Source: Gemmatimonas phototrophica (lineage in GTDB: Bacteria; Gemmatimonadota; Gemmatimonadetes; Gemmatimonadales; Gemmatimonadaceae). Taken from it: DNA of 64,000 nucleotides. The notes below the pieces were generated by a model, which did not search any database, had not been told where the DNA came from, and saw only the letters and a list, made by a program, of their open reading frames with translations. The stretch is from positions 2,852,001 to 2,916,000 of the forward strand of contig NZ_CP011454.1 of NCBI RefSeq assembly GCF_000695095.2, read 5' to 3'. This document shows, piece after piece, positions 38,413 to 47,422 of this stretch. Positions within the stretch are counted from its first letter, which is position 1. Each line of letters opens with the position of its first letter. Both the position numbers and the translations under genes were made by a program.

Positions 38413-38778
38413 CTACTCCGTCACCGCTTCGAGGATGCGCGCCTTGTAGACGTAGAGCAGGCACAGCACCAGCAAAGCCGTAAACAAGAAGAACGTGAAC
38501 ACCATGAACCCTGAGAGCGGCCGTGCGCCCAGGGTCCAGATGAACAGAAACATCGTTTCGAGATCGAACAGCAGAAACGCGATCGCCACCGCGTAATACT
38601 TGATGGGGACCGCTTTGACGTTGAGGATATCCACGGGCGTCGCGCCACACTCGAAGGGTTCGAGCTTGGTGGACGTCGCGGCGGGCTTGGGGCCCAACAA
38701 CGCGTTCAGGGTCAGCGCCAGGCCGACAAAGCCGACGATGGCGGAGAGATACAGCAGAAACGTGATATACGGCGTCAT
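38413..38778 (-). CDS. nuoA: NADH-quinone oxidoreductase subunit A
   Basis: 121 residues from ATG 38778, three membrane helices. KLEPFECGATPVD (~residues 38-50) and FLLFDLETMFLFIW (~67) are NuoA signatures, with the quinone-site loop cysteine in FECG. First gene of the nuo operon; the 535-bp region upstream is shared with the divergent crtB operon. Confidence 0.9.
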   Translation of the reverse strand: MTPYITFLLYLSAIVGFVGLALTLNALLGPKPAATSTKLEPFECGATPVDILNVKAVPIKYYAVAIAFLLFDLETMFLFIWTLGARPLSGFMVFTFFLFTALLVLCLLYVYKARILEAVTE

Positions 38779-39070: not shown

Positions 39071-39088
39071 TGTCACAAAAAGTTGACA
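39071..39088. promoter_or_regulatory. PpsR/CrtJ-like operator, site 1 (TGT-N12-ACA)
   Basis: An exact palindrome TGTCA-N8-TGACA, which satisfies the PpsR/CrtJ consensus TGT-N12-ACA with two further symmetric bases per arm. Its right arm overlaps a TTGACA hexamer, as PpsR sites do in repressed photosynthesis and carotenoid promoters. It stands 7 bp before an identical-format second site. Assignment rests on the consensus and the carotenoid gene downstream; no regulator gene lies in the window. Confidence 0.6.
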
Positions 39089-39095
39089 GACAAGG

Positions 39096-39113
39096 TGTCA
39101 GCCTATGTTGACA
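39096..39113. promoter_or_regulatory. PpsR/CrtJ-like operator, site 2 (TGT-N12-ACA)
   Basis: Second exact TGTCA-N8-TGACA palindrome, 25 bp centre to centre from site 1, so about on the same DNA face within 2.4 turns. Tandem sites separated by ~7-8 bp are the arrangement used by CrtJ/PpsR for cooperative binding. Its right arm overlaps the second TTGACA. A binding site of another dimeric regulator with the same half-site is possible. Confidence 0.6.
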
Positions 39114-39313
39114 GTTGGACCAAGCGGTCGCAGGTTCATTATTATGCCCTGTGTCCTACCGCGACCCTGCCATAATCCGCAGGAACCCGAGGCGGCGTCC
39201 GGCGTTAAGCTCGTGCCGGACGGCTCATCCGATTCCGCGTCCATGTGTGTGCCATCCTCATCCCTGCCTCACATCGCTTCGATGAAATCTCGGCGTCTCC
39301 CGAGTTCGGTGGC

Positions 39314-40297
39314 ATGATCGCACCCGCTTCGCTCAACGATGCGGCGGAGTGCGCCCGTATCACCATGGCTCATGCCCGCACCTTTTCGCTGGCCAGCAAG
39401 CTGCTGCCCCCAGAGAAGCGTCGTGCGGCTTATGCCCTGTACGCATTCTGCCGCGTCGCTGACGACTTGGTCGATCAGGCGGATCACGACAATCTCGGCG
39501 CGTTACGGATCGAGCTCGACGGCTACCGTGATCAGTTGCAGGCGGCCCTTGATGGGCGCCCGGCTGGCCCGATTTTTCGTGAAATGGCGTGGGTCACCCG
39601 GGCCTACGATGTGGCGCCGGATCCCCTGTTCGAATTGCTGGATGGGGTGGGGCGCGACCTCGAAGCGCACACCTACGCCACGTGGCCTGAGCTTGAGCAG
39701 TACTGCGAAGGGGTGGCCAGTTCGGTGGGTGAGATGTGCACCTACGTCTTTGGCGTACCGGCCGGGCCCGCCATGCGTACCAAGGCAATCCAGTATGCGC
39801 GTACCCTTGGCACCGCCATGCAACTCACCAATATCCTGCGGGATGTGGGTGAAGATGCCCACCGCGGGCGCTGCTACCTGCCGGCCGAGGACATGGCCCG
39901 CTTCGGACTGACCGCCCAGGACGTGCTGTCCCGCGACCCGTCGCTGGCGCGGAATCCGTCGTGGGCCAAGCTCATGGCCTTCGAGGTGAGCCGCGCCCGC
40001 GCGCTGTATGCAGCGGCCATGCCGGGCATTGCCCTGTTGGAAGCGGATGCCCAGCGGTGTGCGGCGGCCTGCGCCAACGGCTATGCCGGTATTCTGTCCG
40101 CGATCGAGGCACAGGGCTACGACACCATTTCGTCGCGGGCGCGAATCGGCCGCCTGGCGCGCGTGGGCATCCTGTGGAATGCGTGGCGCTATCGTGCGCC
40201 CACGCCCGACCTGTCGGCGCTGGGCCACGGCCCGCGCATCGTGTGGGAACCCAACACCGCGTCGTCCAACGCCGACGCGCTCGTCCGTCTCGCCTGA
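39314..40297 (+). CDS. crtB: Phytoene synthase
   Basis: 328 residues from ATG 39314. Condenses two geranylgeranyl diphosphates to phytoene, the first committed carotenoid step. The family N-terminus ARTFSLASKLLPPEKRRAAY begins at ~residue 22, with the first Asp-rich motif in ADDLVD (~49-54) and the second in NILRDVGEDAHRGRCYLP (~173-190). A start at 39245 would add 23 unconserved residues. First gene of the carotenoid block, 12 bp before cruF. Confidence 0.9.
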   Translation: MIAPASLNDAAECARITMAHARTFSLASKLLPPEKRRAAYALYAFCRVADDLVDQADHDNLGALRIELDGYRDQLQAALDGRPAGPIFREMAWVTRAYDVAPDPLFELLDGVGRDLEAHTYATWPELEQYCEGVASSVGEMCTYVFGVPAGPAMRTKAIQYARTLGTAMQLTNILRDVGEDAHRGRCYLPAEDMARFGLTAQDVLSRDPSLARNPSWAKLMAFEVSRARALYAAAMPGIALLEADAQRCAAACANGYAGILSAIEAQGYDTISSRARIGRLARVGILWNAWRYRAPTPDLSALGHGPRIVWEPNTASSNADALVRLA

Positions 40298-40309: not shown

Positions 40310-41272
40310 ATGACCCCTTATACGGATCTGCAGGACACCTCGAAGTCGACGCTGTTCAAGATCGCCTCGATCACGCTGCTGGGCCATCTGTTCTTCAGCG
40401 CGTTTTCGGCGTTCGCCTTCGCGACCTTTCTCCTCCCGCCCTATCCGGACTGGCTCCAGGAACCCCAGAACCAGAAGGTGATGGCCATGGGGTACGCGTA
40501 CGGGGGCGCCACGACGGTGACGCTGGGCGCCATCTCCGGCCTCGCGTTTCTGGCGTACGCCGTGGGCATGCGGAAGGCATTGATTACCTTCGGCATCTCT
40601 TTTGTGCTGGCCTTTACGTCGGAGTACGCAGGCACGGTCACCGACTATCCGTTCGGCGCGTACGAGTACACCAGTCAGCTTGGCTACAAGTTGTTTGAAC
40701 GCGTGCCGTTCAACATCCCGACGTCGTGGTTCTACATGCTGGTCGCCTCGCTGGCCATTTGCGGGCGCTTCCTGCCGGCCAAGGATGACAACACGTCGAA
40801 GTGGTGGTGGGCCTTCGTCGGCGGCGTAGTGCTCACGCTGTGGGATGTGTCGATGGACCCGGCGATGGTGAAGACCAATCACTGGTTTTGGCAGATCGGC
40901 GATCTCTCCAACCGGAGCGCCTTCGAGCAGGCGATCGGCAACCCGATCTTCTTCGGCATGCCAATCACCAACTGGCTGGGGTGGCTCCTCACCGGAATCA
41001 TCGTAGCCCGCGTAATGCTCATGGTCATCCCGCCGTCGGAATGGGTGGCCAAGGTGTCCCCGCACCGCCTCCCGATTGCGCTGTACGCCATCAACGGCCT
41101 GCTGCCGCTGGCGATCTGCTTCCGCTGGGACATGGTCCCGGCCGGCGTGCTCGGAACCATTGCCATGGTGGTGCCGCTCTGGGCGGCGCTTCGCAACGAC
41201 CCCGCGCCGCTGACCAGCCTTGGCACCGCTCCGTTGAGCCGGGTTGGCGACGGCGCGCTCAGTTCCCGATAA
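40310..41272 (+). CDS. cruF: Carotenoid biosynthesis membrane protein, CruF-type (carotenoid 1',2'-hydratase)
   Basis: 320 residues with about 8 membrane helices. The family (DUF422/CruF) adds water at the C-1',2' end of acyclic or monocyclic carotenoids. Recognisable stretches are SEYAGTVTDYPFGAYEYT (~residues 105-122), VPFNIPTSWFYM (~130), LWDVSMDPAMV (~180) and FGMPITNWLGW (~218), rich in conserved Asp/Glu/His. Tight linkage to crtB and crtI supports the role. No lycopene cyclase is in the window, consistent with acyclic hydroxylated end products such as oscillol-type carotenoids known from Gemmatimonas. Confidence 0.82.
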   Translation: MTPYTDLQDTSKSTLFKIASITLLGHLFFSAFSAFAFATFLLPPYPDWLQEPQNQKVMAMGYAYGGATTVTLGAISGLAFLAYAVGMRKALITFGISFVLAFTSEYAGTVTDYPFGAYEYTSQLGYKLFERVPFNIPTSWFYMLVASLAICGRFLPAKDDNTSKWWWAFVGGVVLTLWDVSMDPAMVKTNHWFWQIGDLSNRSAFEQAIGNPIFFGMPITNWLGWLLTGIIVARVMLMVIPPSEWVAKVSPHRLPIALYAINGLLPLAICFRWDMVPAGVLGTIAMVVPLWAALRNDPAPLTSLGTAPLSRVGDGALSSR

Positions 41273-41297
41273 CCATAGACTGGGCAGTCTGTACCAG

Positions 41298-41323
41298 AAC
41301 GGCCGGGCCCCAGCCCGGCCGTT
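41298..41323 (+). terminator. Hairpin after cruF, probable terminator
   Basis: An 11-bp perfect GC-rich stem (41298-41308 with 41313-41323) around a CCCA loop, 25 bp after the cruF stop. Only three T residues follow, so it may be a partial or Rho-assisted terminator. It suggests crtB-cruF is separable from the downstream small membrane protein and crtI. Confidence 0.55.
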
Positions 41324-41401
41324 TGCAATTCGTCCACGACCCCATAGGGGTTTTCCGGGCACACAGCACGATTGGTGTGCGTTAGCCTTTACGACTGCGG
41401 T

Positions 41402-41692
41402 ATGGATCGCCTCGTTCCCATCTTCGATTCCGATGCACTGCCCATCGGCATTCTCGTCCTCATTGCGGTAGAGGCGCTGGTGCTGGTGATCTGGCAGCGG
41501 CGCAACCCCGACTCGGTGCTGGGGCGGCCCAACATCGCCCGCATTGTTTCGTTTCTTGGCGCCGGCGGTTCGCTCGTGGCGGCCATGATCTTTCATCGTC
41601 GTCCCGATCCGTCACCCGAGGGGTTTGCCGTTGCGATGTTGTGCGCAATGGTCATTCACCTCTGGCACATTGCCGTCCTGCTGAAGCGTTAA
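41402..41692 (+). CDS. Small three-helix membrane protein inside the carotenoid cluster
   Basis: 96 residues from ATG 41402 with three predicted membrane segments: PIGILVLIAVEALVLVIW (~14-31), a middle one around FLGAGGSLVAAMIF (~49-62) and AVAMLCAMVIHLWHIAVLL (~75-93). Histidines occur at the membrane edges (FHRRP, IHLWHIAVL). I do not recognise the family. Its position between cruF and crtI, all co-oriented, suggests a carotenoid-related or membrane-organisation role, but this is only context. It starts 44 bp before crtI after its own stop. Confidence 0.65.
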   Translation: MDRLVPIFDSDALPIGILVLIAVEALVLVIWQRRNPDSVLGRPNIARIVSFLGAGGSLVAAMIFHRRPDPSPEGFAVAMLCAMVIHLWHIAVLLKR

Positions 41693-41736
41693 GCACGCAT
41701 CCCGCAGGCGTCACGATCCCTCAGAGCACTTCGGTT

Positions 41737-43251
41737 ATGCGCATTGTTGTCATCGGTAGCGGATTTGGCGGCCTCGCCGCCGCCATTCGCCTGCAGGCCC
41801 AGGGGCACCAGGTCACGATTGTCGAGAAGCTCGACAAGGCGGGCGGCCGTGCCTACGTCTTCGAACAGGACGGTTTCAGCTTCGACGCCGGTCCCACCAT
41901 CATCACGGCGCCGTGGGTGCTGGACGAACTGTTCGCACTGACCGGGAAGAAAACCGAGGACTACATCAAGCTGGTGCTGCTGAATCCGTTTTACAACATC
42001 CGGTTCGAAGACGGGTCGGTGTTCCACTACAACGGTGACAAGGAAGACCTCGTTCGTCAGGTGGGCGAATTCTCGCCGCGTGACGTGCAGGGCTACCAGC
42101 GGTTCCGTGAAAAAGCGTGGGACATTTTCAACACCGGCATGTCGCTCATCGACAAGCCGTTCCTGACGATGGGTTCGATGTTGCGCGTCGTGCCCGATCT
42201 CATTCGCATGCGCGCCGATGTCTCCGTGGCGGGGCTGGCCGGGAAATACATCAAGGACGAGCGCCTGCGGCAGGTCTTCTCCTTCCACCCACTCCTGGTG
42301 GGCGGCAATCCGTTTCGTTCGTCCAGCGTGTACGCACTCATCCACAAGCTGGAACAGCAGTGGGGCGTGATGTTTGCCATGGGAGGCACGGGTGCACTCG
42401 TGCGCGCCCTGGTGCAGGCCTTCGAAGATCTTGGCGGCGAGATTCGCTACGAAAGCGAAGTGCAGGAAATCCTGGTGGACGAGAAGCGTCGGGCCAGTGG
42501 CGTGAAGCTCAAGAATGGGCAGCAACTCAAGTCTGATGCGGTGGTGTGCAACGGAGATCTCGCACAGGCGTACCGCACGTTGCTGCCACCAGCCGTGCGT
42601 CCCAGCATGCCCAACCGGAAGGTGGAGAACCTGCGCCACAGCATGTCGCTGTTCGTCATCTACTTCGGCACCAACCGCAAGTATGACAACATCGCGCACC
42701 ATGAGATCATCATGGGCCCGCGCTACAAGCATCTGCTCGAAGACATCTTCGAAAAGAAGATTCTGTCCGACGATTTCTCGTTGTACCTGCACCGCCCGAC
42801 TGCCACCGACCCGTCGCTGGCGCCGCCGGGGCACGATTGCTGGTACGTGCTCTCCCCCGTGCCGCATCTGGGGAGCAATACCGACTGGGAAGCGGTGAGC
42901 CAGCGTTACCGCGATCGCATCATGCAGTACCTCGAAGATCGCTACGTGCCCGACCTGCAGAAGCACATCGTGACCGAACGCCGCATCGACCCGCGCTATT
43001 TCGAATCCACGCTCAACAGCTACATGGGCAGCGCCTTCGGTCCCGAGCCAGTGCTCACGCAGTCGGCCTACATGCGCCCGCACAACCAGAGCAAGGACAT
43101 CCCGAACCTGTATTTCTGTGGCGCCGGCACCCACCCGGGAGCTGGCCTCCCCGGCGTGATTTCCTCGGGCAAGATCGTGGCCGAGCTGATTGGGGGGGTC
43201 CCCGCCAAACGGGCGGCGCCCTCCCCTGCCCCCACCCTGCAGCCGGTGTAA
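41737..43251 (+). CDS. crtI: Phytoene desaturase (CrtI-type)
   Basis: 504 residues from ATG 41737. FAD-dependent desaturation of phytoene to lycopene or neurosporene. The dinucleotide site IGSGFGGLAAAIRLQAQGH is at ~residues 6-24, then GGRAYVFEQDGFSFDAGPT (~37-55), and the C-terminal family signature YFCGAGTHPGAGLPGVISSG (~460-479). The last ~20 residues are a proline/alanine-rich tail. The upstream open frame from 41641 has no start support. Confidence 0.9.
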   Translation: MRIVVIGSGFGGLAAAIRLQAQGHQVTIVEKLDKAGGRAYVFEQDGFSFDAGPTIITAPWVLDELFALTGKKTEDYIKLVLLNPFYNIRFEDGSVFHYNGDKEDLVRQVGEFSPRDVQGYQRFREKAWDIFNTGMSLIDKPFLTMGSMLRVVPDLIRMRADVSVAGLAGKYIKDERLRQVFSFHPLLVGGNPFRSSSVYALIHKLEQQWGVMFAMGGTGALVRALVQAFEDLGGEIRYESEVQEILVDEKRRASGVKLKNGQQLKSDAVVCNGDLAQAYRTLLPPAVRPSMPNRKVENLRHSMSLFVIYFGTNRKYDNIAHHEIIMGPRYKHLLEDIFEKKILSDDFSLYLHRPTATDPSLAPPGHDCWYVLSPVPHLGSNTDWEAVSQRYRDRIMQYLEDRYVPDLQKHIVTERRIDPRYFESTLNSYMGSAFGPEPVLTQSAYMRPHNQSKDIPNLYFCGAGTHPGAGLPGVISSGKIVAELIGGVPAKRAAPSPAPTLQPV

Positions 43252-45273: not shown

Positions 45274-46665
45274 TTAGCGGGCGGTCACCCGCATCTGGAT
45301 TTCCGTTGCCGGCCTGGTGGTGAGGCGGGCGTACGGCCGCACCGTCTCCGGATGCAGTGTGGTGAAGTCAAACCGGCGCACCAGCCGGGCGATGATCAGC
45401 GCCGTTTCAATGGTGGCGAACGCGGCCCCTACACAAATGCGCGGCCCGGCGCCGAACGGCAGGTACGAACCTGGCACCTGCTTCGATTCCCGCTCCGGAA
45501 GAAACCGGTCGGGATCAAAACGGTCCGGCATATCCCACAGCTTTTCGTGTCGATGCATGCTCCACGGCGCAATCATGAGCATGGTTCCGCGCTTGACCTT
45601 GCGGCCGTCGATCTCCGTGTCCTTGCCGGCCACACGCGGCAGAAACGTAATGGGCGGGTAGAGGCGCAGCACTTCGCGGAAGAAATTGCGAACAAATGGC
45701 AGACGCTTCGTGTGCTCAAGCAGCACGGGACCGTCACCCACAACCTCCGCTACCTCGGCGCGAATGCGGGCGGCGAGATCGGGACGTTGCGACAGAATGA
45801 AAAACGCCCAGGTCAAGGAACTCGCCGTGGTCTCGTGCCCAGCCAGGAAGAACACCCCCAGCTGGTCGATCAGCCCTTCCCGATCGAAGGGCTCACCCGT
45901 TTCGGCGTCGCGCGCCTCGAGAATGGCCCCGGCGATATCGTCGAACTCCGGGTGCTTGAGGCGTTCATCGAGCATGGTACCCAGATGCATGCGAATGCGG
46001 GCGCAGGCCTTCCGCACAGGCTCCGGCTGCTGGTGCGGCGACCAGGGCCTGTCCCACAGCATGCGCTTGATATCGATGCTCCCCACCTGCCGTTCGAAGC
46101 GCATGAAGTCATCAAAGACCTCCTGCGACGCTTCGCCTCCCAGCGGCACCGAGAAGATCGTGCGCGTAATGACATCGGCCGTGAGGTGGCTCATGGCGGC
46201 ATCAAGTGAAAACGGCTGCGCACCGGCGGCCTGCTCTTCCAACCGATGCTCGTAGTCGTCTACCGCAGCCGCCATGAAGTCGAAGGCGCGATTGATGCGC
46301 ATATGCGAGAACGCGGGGTCCACCATCTTCCGCTGCCGCCGCCAGGTATCGCCACTGGTGACGAACATGGAGTTCCCCACGAGATCTTCCAACGCCTCCA
46401 CGAACAGGTCGTTCTTGGGGAAGGTGTCGTGGTCGGTGAGAATGCGGTTCACCCAGACCGGATCGTTGACGAGCAGGATCCCCCGCCGGGTGTAGCCAAG
46501 AGGGGTGATCATCTCGCGATAGGCGAGATCCGGCAAAAGGCTGAGCAGGTCCTTTTCCCGGCGCCACATGAGGCGCAACAGTGAAGGAACCGGTGGGCGC
46601 GGCGTAGGCGCCGGCGGGCGCCAGAGAGGCCCCGGAGCCGTTGAATCCGGTTGGGGAGGGGTCAC
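45274..46665 (-). CDS. Cytochrome P450
   Basis: 463 residues, no membrane anchor. The oxygen-binding I-helix motif is AGHETTASS (~residues 275-283), the K-helix ExxR is in REVLRLYPP (~330), and the heme loop PFGAGPRICVG (~402-412) gives the cysteine ligand. The long form, with FLPER before the heme loop, resembles self-standing CYP110/CYP175-like enzymes that oxidise fatty acids, terpenes or carotenoids. No dedicated redox partner is adjacent. The carotenoid genes 2 kb away make carotenoid hydroxylation an attractive but untested idea. Confidence 0.88.
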   Translation of the reverse strand: MTPPQPDSTAPGPLWRPPAPTPRPPVPSLLRLMWRREKDLLSLLPDLAYREMITPLGYTRRGILLVNDPVWVNRILTDHDTFPKNDLFVEALEDLVGNSMFVTSGDTWRRQRKMVDPAFSHMRINRAFDFMAAAVDDYEHRLEEQAAGAQPFSLDAAMSHLTADVITRTIFSVPLGGEASQEVFDDFMRFERQVGSIDIKRMLWDRPWSPHQQPEPVRKACARIRMHLGTMLDERLKHPEFDDIAGAILEARDAETGEPFDREGLIDQLGVFFLAGHETTASSLTWAFFILSQRPDLAARIRAEVAEVVGDGPVLLEHTKRLPFVRNFFREVLRLYPPITFLPRVAGKDTEIDGRKVKRGTMLMIAPWSMHRHEKLWDMPDRFDPDRFLPERESKQVPGSYLPFGAGPRICVGAAFATIETALIIARLVRRFDFTTLHPETVRPYARLTTRPATEIQMRVTAR

Positions 46666-46672
46666 GGGTGTC

Positions 46673-47422
46673 TCAGGCCTTGCTGGTCGCGCCAGCCGGT
46701 GCAGAGCGCGGCCGGCGGAAGGCCAGGCGCAGACGTGTCTGCTGGTAGATGATGATCACCAATCCCACACCGAGTGGGATGGCCCACATTTTGGGATTGA
46801 GCGCGTTGCCGGGGTTGAGCCGCACAAAACCGAACGCCATGAATGCGGTATACACGGAGATACCGGACCCCACGATGCTCTTGATGTGCTCCAGCTGGTA
46901 CGCAATGCGACTGGGCTCAGGGGTATAGATGAACCACAGATTGGTCAGCCCCGACGCAATGCCCACCAGCGAGAAGCCCATCATGAGCGTCTCATTGATG
47001 AGCCACCCCCGATAGGCGCACACGAGGGCGGCAAAGATCGTGAACACGTTCAGGGACACATTGGCCCAGTGCCGGTTGGCCGGGTGGTTCTTCTTGTTCC
47101 GGATGGTGGCGATCCCATGCCAGACCAGATGGATGGTCATGATGGCGAGGTACAGCATCATCCAACCAAAAATCCCCTCAATCCGCGACTGGGGCCAATT
47201 GAGCGCCACCTGTTTGGGGTGGGTGACGATGGGGGACAGCAGGGTGGTACTTGCCATGCCAATGGCCATGCTGGCGGTCACCAACATGAGCCGGGCATAC
47301 CATTCCCCGAACTTCCGGTGGGTCGGGCTCCCCTTTTTCCCAAGCACGGGGATCCAAAAGAGGAGCAACCCCACCGCGCCGGTGGTGACATGGACGAACA
47401 AGAAGCCTTCAAAGGGCCACAT
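46673..47422 (-). CDS. Multi-pass membrane protein, DUF2306-like
   Basis: 249 residues, about seven membrane helices. The start FLFVHVTTGAVGLLLFWIP, then KGSPTHRKFGEWYARLM, and an internal HLVWHGIATIRN show conserved histidines at membrane edges, like DUF2306/cytochrome-b561-like uncharacterised proteins; the family call is tentative. It is transcribed with the P450 gene (7-bp gap), so it could be a heme or electron-transfer partner. Both genes interrupt the usual clpP-clpX order. Confidence 0.6.
   Translation of the reverse strand: MWPFEGFLFVHVTTGAVGLLLFWIPVLGKKGSPTHRKFGEWYARLMLVTASMAIGMASTTLLSPIVTHPKQVALNWPQSRIEGIFGWMMLYLAIMTIHLVWHGIATIRNKKNHPANRHWANVSLNVFTIFAALVCAYRGWLINETLMMGFSLVGIASGLTNLWFIYTPEPSRIAYQLEHIKSIVGSGISVYTAFMAFGFVRLNPGNALNPKMWAIPLGVGLVIIIYQQTRLRLAFRRPRSAPAGATSKA

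Follow-up and report, generated by a model that had tools for sequence, protein, structure and literature searches.

The targets of CrtJ carry two linked TGT-N12-ACA sites, usually 8 bp apart (PMC9144470), and the HTH cysteine of this regulator, Cys420, responds to oxygen (PMC9144470, PMC5362033). Its replacement by alanine lowered affinity about 60-fold (PMC9144470). In Rubrivivax gelatinosus, the spacing of PpsR sites governs redox-dependent binding, which is seen at 9 bp and not at 8 bp, and a mutant of the Rubrivivax PpsR carrying Cys436Ala retained repression (PMC4452267). For the photosynthesis cluster of Gemmatimonas phototrophica, a 2024 study described one PpsR site, at bchID-puhE, without mentioning crtB, and reported no effect of oxygen and weak, transient effects of light (PMC11406998).

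We analysed a stretch of 64,000 nt of the G. phototrophica genome (the window). Two palindromes, both on the forward strand, lie between the divergent genes nuoA and crtB, about 200 bp 5' of the latter: a distal one, O1, at 39071..39088 (TGTCACAAAAAGTTGACA) and a proximal one, O2, at 39096..39113 (TGTCAGCCTATGTTGACA). They are separated by a spacer of 7 bp (39089-39095), and TTGACA forms the 3' end of each. This tandem of exact TGTCA-N8-TGACA palindromes is precisely as the first-pass annotation had described it. Both conform to the TGT-N12-ACA consensus of PpsR/CrtJ operators, in the stricter TGTCA-N8-TGACA form. Such operators come in two copies, either closely linked, typically by 8 bp, or distant; O1 and O2 share the close linkage of the CrtJ targets, whereas their spacer is 7 bp instead of 8 bp. 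A carotenoid gene with paired sites upstream is also known from the crtI and pucB promoters of Rubrivivax gelatinosus (PMC4452267), which, however, is a purple bacterium that keeps Cys436, whereas G. phototrophica combines the 7-bp spacing with a phenylalanine at that position.

The number of exact TGTCA-N8-TGACA palindromes in the window was two, compared to 0.07 expected from shuffles. The same two were the only ones in the entire genome (4,716,552 bp, a single contig), in which the reversed-pattern control yielded none. Given its base composition alone, the genome should contain about 1.6 single exact palindromes, so that finding one is unremarkable, whereas the expectation for exact pairs at a fixed spacing is about 6e-7. 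The tandem TGT-N12-ACA-N7-TGT-N12-ACA was detected once, at O1/O2 (control, zero). The genome-wide scan that had been proposed as a check therefore placed the tandem at this spacing uniquely at crtB, and it also recovered a ppsR gene.

The ppsR gene is full length and located on the minus strand (G000:C1:1560629-1561954; TIGR02040, 471.9 bits with a cut-off of 275.4). Its product contains the PAS domains and the Fis-type HTH of the family, matches the PpsR structures 4HH2 and 4HH3 in phmmer searches, and has a recognition helix (SRQSLYVKLRR) that resembles those of proteobacterial PpsRs in an alignment. The gene is flanked by bchG and a B12-binding gene of the ppaA/AerR type, and hem genes adjoin ppsR/ppaA in the cluster; the same order around ppsR is annotated on Novosphingobium and Roseobacter plasmids. 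The redox-active HTH cysteine (Cys420 in CrtJ) is replaced by phenylalanine in all 15 Gemmatimonadota PpsRs examined (G. phototrophica, 13 others and G110; L014:584-2059), and is present in the five proteobacterial PpsRs that were aligned, with equivalence to Cys420 set by HTH position and R. capsulatus CrtJ left out of the alignment. The family assignment by sequence stands.

This Cys-to-Phe change in Gemmatimonadota PpsR is a new observation and bears on the signal sensed by the protein. It agrees with the reported lack of control by oxygen and would argue against repression in oxygen. The first-pass annotation had attributed such repression to the two operators; the reading as PpsR sites holds up, whereas oxygen as the signal is doubtful given the phenylalanine in the HTH and the finding that oxygen did not affect the cluster in G. 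phototrophica (PMC11406998). As the Rubrivivax Cys436Ala mutant still represses, DNA binding by PpsR without the cysteine is plausible, even though the alanine mutant of CrtJ Cys420 had a much reduced affinity. Because of the cysteine replacement, the signal is more likely to be light or cobalamin, perceived via the adjacent PpaA/AerR-type B12 protein, or the level of PpsR itself, than oxygen.

We next consider the photosynthesis cluster. A symmetric matrix of 22 positions was derived from sites upstream of crtB in other genomes (21 sites, none from G. phototrophica) and was used to scan the window and the region at 1.50–1.60 Mb. In the window, O2 scored highest (25.7 bits), followed by O1 (21.5 bits). 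Within the cluster, matches were located on the bchG side (1560477, 22.2 bits) and at bchI (1595286, 21.3 bits), bchC (1593844, 20.5 bits), bchO/puf (1587711 and 1587737, 15.6 and 13.8 bits) and bchF (1563065 and 1563049, 15.4 and 13.0 bits), so the motif found at crtB is shared by bch/puf promoters. Nine matches of at least 12 bits were observed, a count reached by the permuted matrix in 1.3% of 300 trials. The bchI match is probably the PpsR site reported previously; the predicted PpsR sites at further cluster promoters and the predicted pair at crtB are new with respect to that study (PMC11406998). A scan of 14 further phototroph genomes, with a matrix that included O1 and O2 of G. phototrophica, gave matches close to the ppsR ends in every one: 12 had them towards bchG as well as towards bchF, whereas G138, where the contig stops, and G052 had them on a single side.

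Genome-wide totals of the motif were no higher in genomes with ppsR than in those without, and hence only the placement of the motif was taken as evidence. Exact sites elsewhere (G142 C27, G138 C149, G088 C105 and C164, G024 C5, G071 C25, and G052 C57 and C135) were flanked by frames in which no common theme was apparent by eye. A PpsR-like palindrome, TGTAAAGAATGCTTGACA, was also seen at L175 (G069:C30:23942-23959), in a genome without ppsR.

The presence of the crtB-upstream site was compared with phototrophy across relatives. In the genus Gemmatimonas, crtB was detected in 28 of 30 genomes and ppsR in 23 of 30. The crtB-bearing phototrophs comprise 22 genomes with ppsR and G157, in which bchN is present and ppsR was not found, and all 23 possess the site. 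Relatives without ppsR had been expected to lack the palindromes. This was the case upstream of crtB in G022 and G069, both well assembled, and not in G156, a draft genome with neither ppsR nor bchN detected, which has one degenerate site with no partner. The difference between 23 of 23 phototrophs and one of three observable non-phototrophs was significant when kinship is ignored (Fisher's exact test, p = 0.009); G109 was left out since its contig ends 128 bp upstream of crtB. The pair is also present in G150, a genome in which ppsR was not found but which, at 57% complete, was not counted as a non-phototroph.

Among the genomes examined, phototrophic Gemmatimonas have a counterpart of O2, as do five genomes of genus g24, and most Gemmatimonas phototrophs also have a counterpart of O1, 25–26 bp upstream of that of O2. 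The resulting spacing is 7–8 bp in most relatives. In genus g24, the O1 counterpart is absent and a single exact site precedes crtB in five of five phototrophs. One site, without the conserved spacer, was identified in G052 (g25), and none within 520 bp upstream of crtB in the ppsR-bearing genomes of g16, g19, g23 and g27. The absence of sites from these four genera indicates that the wiring is lineage-specific.

Taken together, O1 and O2 are, with good confidence, best explained as the operators of a PpsR/CrtJ-family regulator whose gene lies in the acquired photosynthesis cluster. This agrees with the annotation of the two palindromes as PpsR/CrtJ-type operators, which gains support, at the level of sequence, from the full-length PpsR, the motif at cluster promoters and the co-occurrence with phototrophy. 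Binding of PpsR to O1 and O2 appears very probable, and control of crtB by PpsR is likely.

The promoter predicted for crtB suggests how such control might operate. Its −35 hexamer, TTGACA (39108..39113, forward strand), is the right half of O2 and is conserved in 30 of 31 crtB-upstream sites; its −10 hexamer, CAGGTT (39131..39136, forward strand), corresponds to CANNNT across relatives and was placed by the conserved 17-bp spacer. A proximal site ending in TTGACA, followed after exactly 17 bp by CANNNT, is found in 29 of 31 crtB-upstream sequences, so that the operator overlaps the predicted promoter core. In G048, an extra base within the proximal palindrome breaks the match, whereas the promoter is kept, as judged by eye. 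Transcription is predicted to start near 39143, relative to which O2 would extend from about −47 to −30 and O1 from about −72 to −55. In the bchC promoter of R. capsulatus, the upper palindrome spans the −35 element at about the same −47 to −30 predicted for O2, whereas the second palindrome covers the −10 element (PMC5362033), unlike O1, which is located upstream of O2. Since the TTGACA of O2 is the conserved −35 element, bound PpsR should cover the crtB promoter. A PpsR tetramer would bind O1 and O2 cooperatively, cover the −35 hexamer and limit transcription of crtB, and probably of cruF-crtI too. The resident carotenoid pathway would thereby be tied to the synthesis of bacteriochlorophyll and the reaction centre.

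The net effect on crtB is somewhat more likely to be repression, with activation from −38 and −63 being possible. PpsR acting mainly as an activator is the strongest competing explanation, and one to which we assign a modest probability: O1 and O2, centred at about −63 and −38, could assist RNA polymerase together with a LAerR-like partner. CrtJ of R. capsulatus with LAerR has been modelled as an activator (PMC9144470, PMC5362033), a B12 protein gene adjoins ppsR, and the second palindrome lies upstream and not over the −10 element. However, O2 overlaps the whole of the predicted −35 hexamer, which favours occlusion.

Quite unlikely is that the sites were inherited and are now idle, the motif persisting merely because TTGACA serves as the −35 element. 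Minimal regulation of the cluster has been reported (PMC11406998), the right half of O2 coincides with the −35 hexamer, and PpsR has lost its redox cysteine, all of which are in keeping with idle sites. On the other hand, neither TGT(C/A)A, the left half, nor O1 has an obvious role in the promoter. Both are nevertheless conserved although the spacers have diverged, and G022 and G069, which are non-phototrophs, lack them.

Carotenoid promoters are often under the control of CarH-type repressors that overlap the −35 element. Binding of O1/O2 by a different carotenoid regulator, such as the B12-dependent MerR-type photoreceptor CarH/LitR, with the link to phototrophy arising by chance, has a similarly small probability. 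Only two B12-binding_2 domains were returned by the search of the genome: a 1289-residue frame (the size of MetH) contains one, and ppaA, beside ppsR, the other; accordingly, no CarH was seen, and no MerR-B12 regulator was recognized by this search. Furthermore, the motif is also found at bch promoters and is missing from the two non-phototrophs.

The operon downstream of O1/O2 is located outside the photosynthesis cluster. It begins with crtB, of the phytoene synthase type (39314..40297), which was assigned from NCBIfam HpnD/CrtB-type matches below equivalog cut-offs and from the family-wide order of the locus. This gene is followed by a cruF-like carotenoid hydratase gene (40310..41272; PF04240, 1.7e-41; NF045693 CruF, 1.6e-37, below cut-off) and a phytoene desaturase gene of the crtI type (41728..43251; TIGR02734 crtI_fam, 618.8 bits with a cut-off of 238.1), all on the forward strand. 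The divergent neighbour is nuoA of complex I (38413..38778, minus strand, ATG at 38778; NF005922 and related models, below cut-off). The possibility that the palindromes serve the nuoA operon is very remote and was rejected on synteny, although in the window nuoA starts on the opposite strand at a distance of about 290 bp; an effect on this operon had also been allowed for by the first-pass annotation. Of the genomes compared, only two have nuoA directly beside crtB. In G098, G142, G121 and G022, susD intervenes and the distance to nuoA is about 5 kb, and the sites of those genomes that have them stay with crtB; nuoA thus looks like an incidental neighbour.

The order crtB-cruF-crtI-tig-clpP-clpX is kept in the non-phototrophs G022, G069 and G109, and susD, with nuo genes farther out, is found upstream of crtB in several genomes with and without ppsR. 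Trees of crtB-cruF-crtI and tig-clpP-clpX agree in their main groupings, with several nodes weakly supported: G069 groups with G121 in both (support 99 and 87), g24 falls outside the genus, and genomes without ppsR are interspersed among those with it. This shared gene order in non-phototrophs and the broad agreement with the housekeeping tree identify the operon as resident. They also fit vertical inheritance of the carotenoid operon, with ppsR lost several times or, as a less simple alternative, gained several times. Arrival of the crt operon together with the photosynthesis cluster was rejected, as gene order and trees, several nodes of which have low support, point to vertical inheritance. 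The suggestion that a host operon was wired to an acquired regulator thus gains credence from a crt locus that appears resident and lies outside the cluster. In this respect, and in a regulator without the HTH cysteine, the system differs from that of CrtJ.

Several further features of the locus vary among relatives. Two genes, one for a cytochrome P450 and the other unassigned, are located between clpP and clpX (45274-47422); they are present in ppsR-bearing Gemmatimonas in which this stretch is visible and absent from the three genomes without ppsR that were compared. The gap between cruF and crtI (41273-41727 here) measures approximately 370–490 bp in g24 and in Gemmatimonas with ppsR, and <70 bp in Gemmatimonas without it. 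The crt genes of G069 and G022, both non-phototrophs (L095 and L094, crtB locus), sit on longer branches than their counterparts in phototrophic relatives, which suggests that selection on them has relaxed or changed.

G. phototrophica is a leading natural experiment on how transferred clusters get wired into a new host. An account on which we are evenly divided is that the acquired PpsR lost its oxygen cysteine, kept its DNA specificity and its multi-promoter cluster regulon, and captured the resident carotenoid operon, and may now, blind to oxygen, coordinate pigment genes of foreign and host origin, probably in response to light or cobalamin. The Cys-to-Phe change is a direct candidate reason for the missing oxygen response. 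The published picture is one of minimal regulation with one PpsR site; it would change if the regulon is conserved and extends to a resident operon. As the presence or absence of the operators tracks phototrophy among close relatives, it is possible in this group to trace how regulatory wiring was gained or lost.
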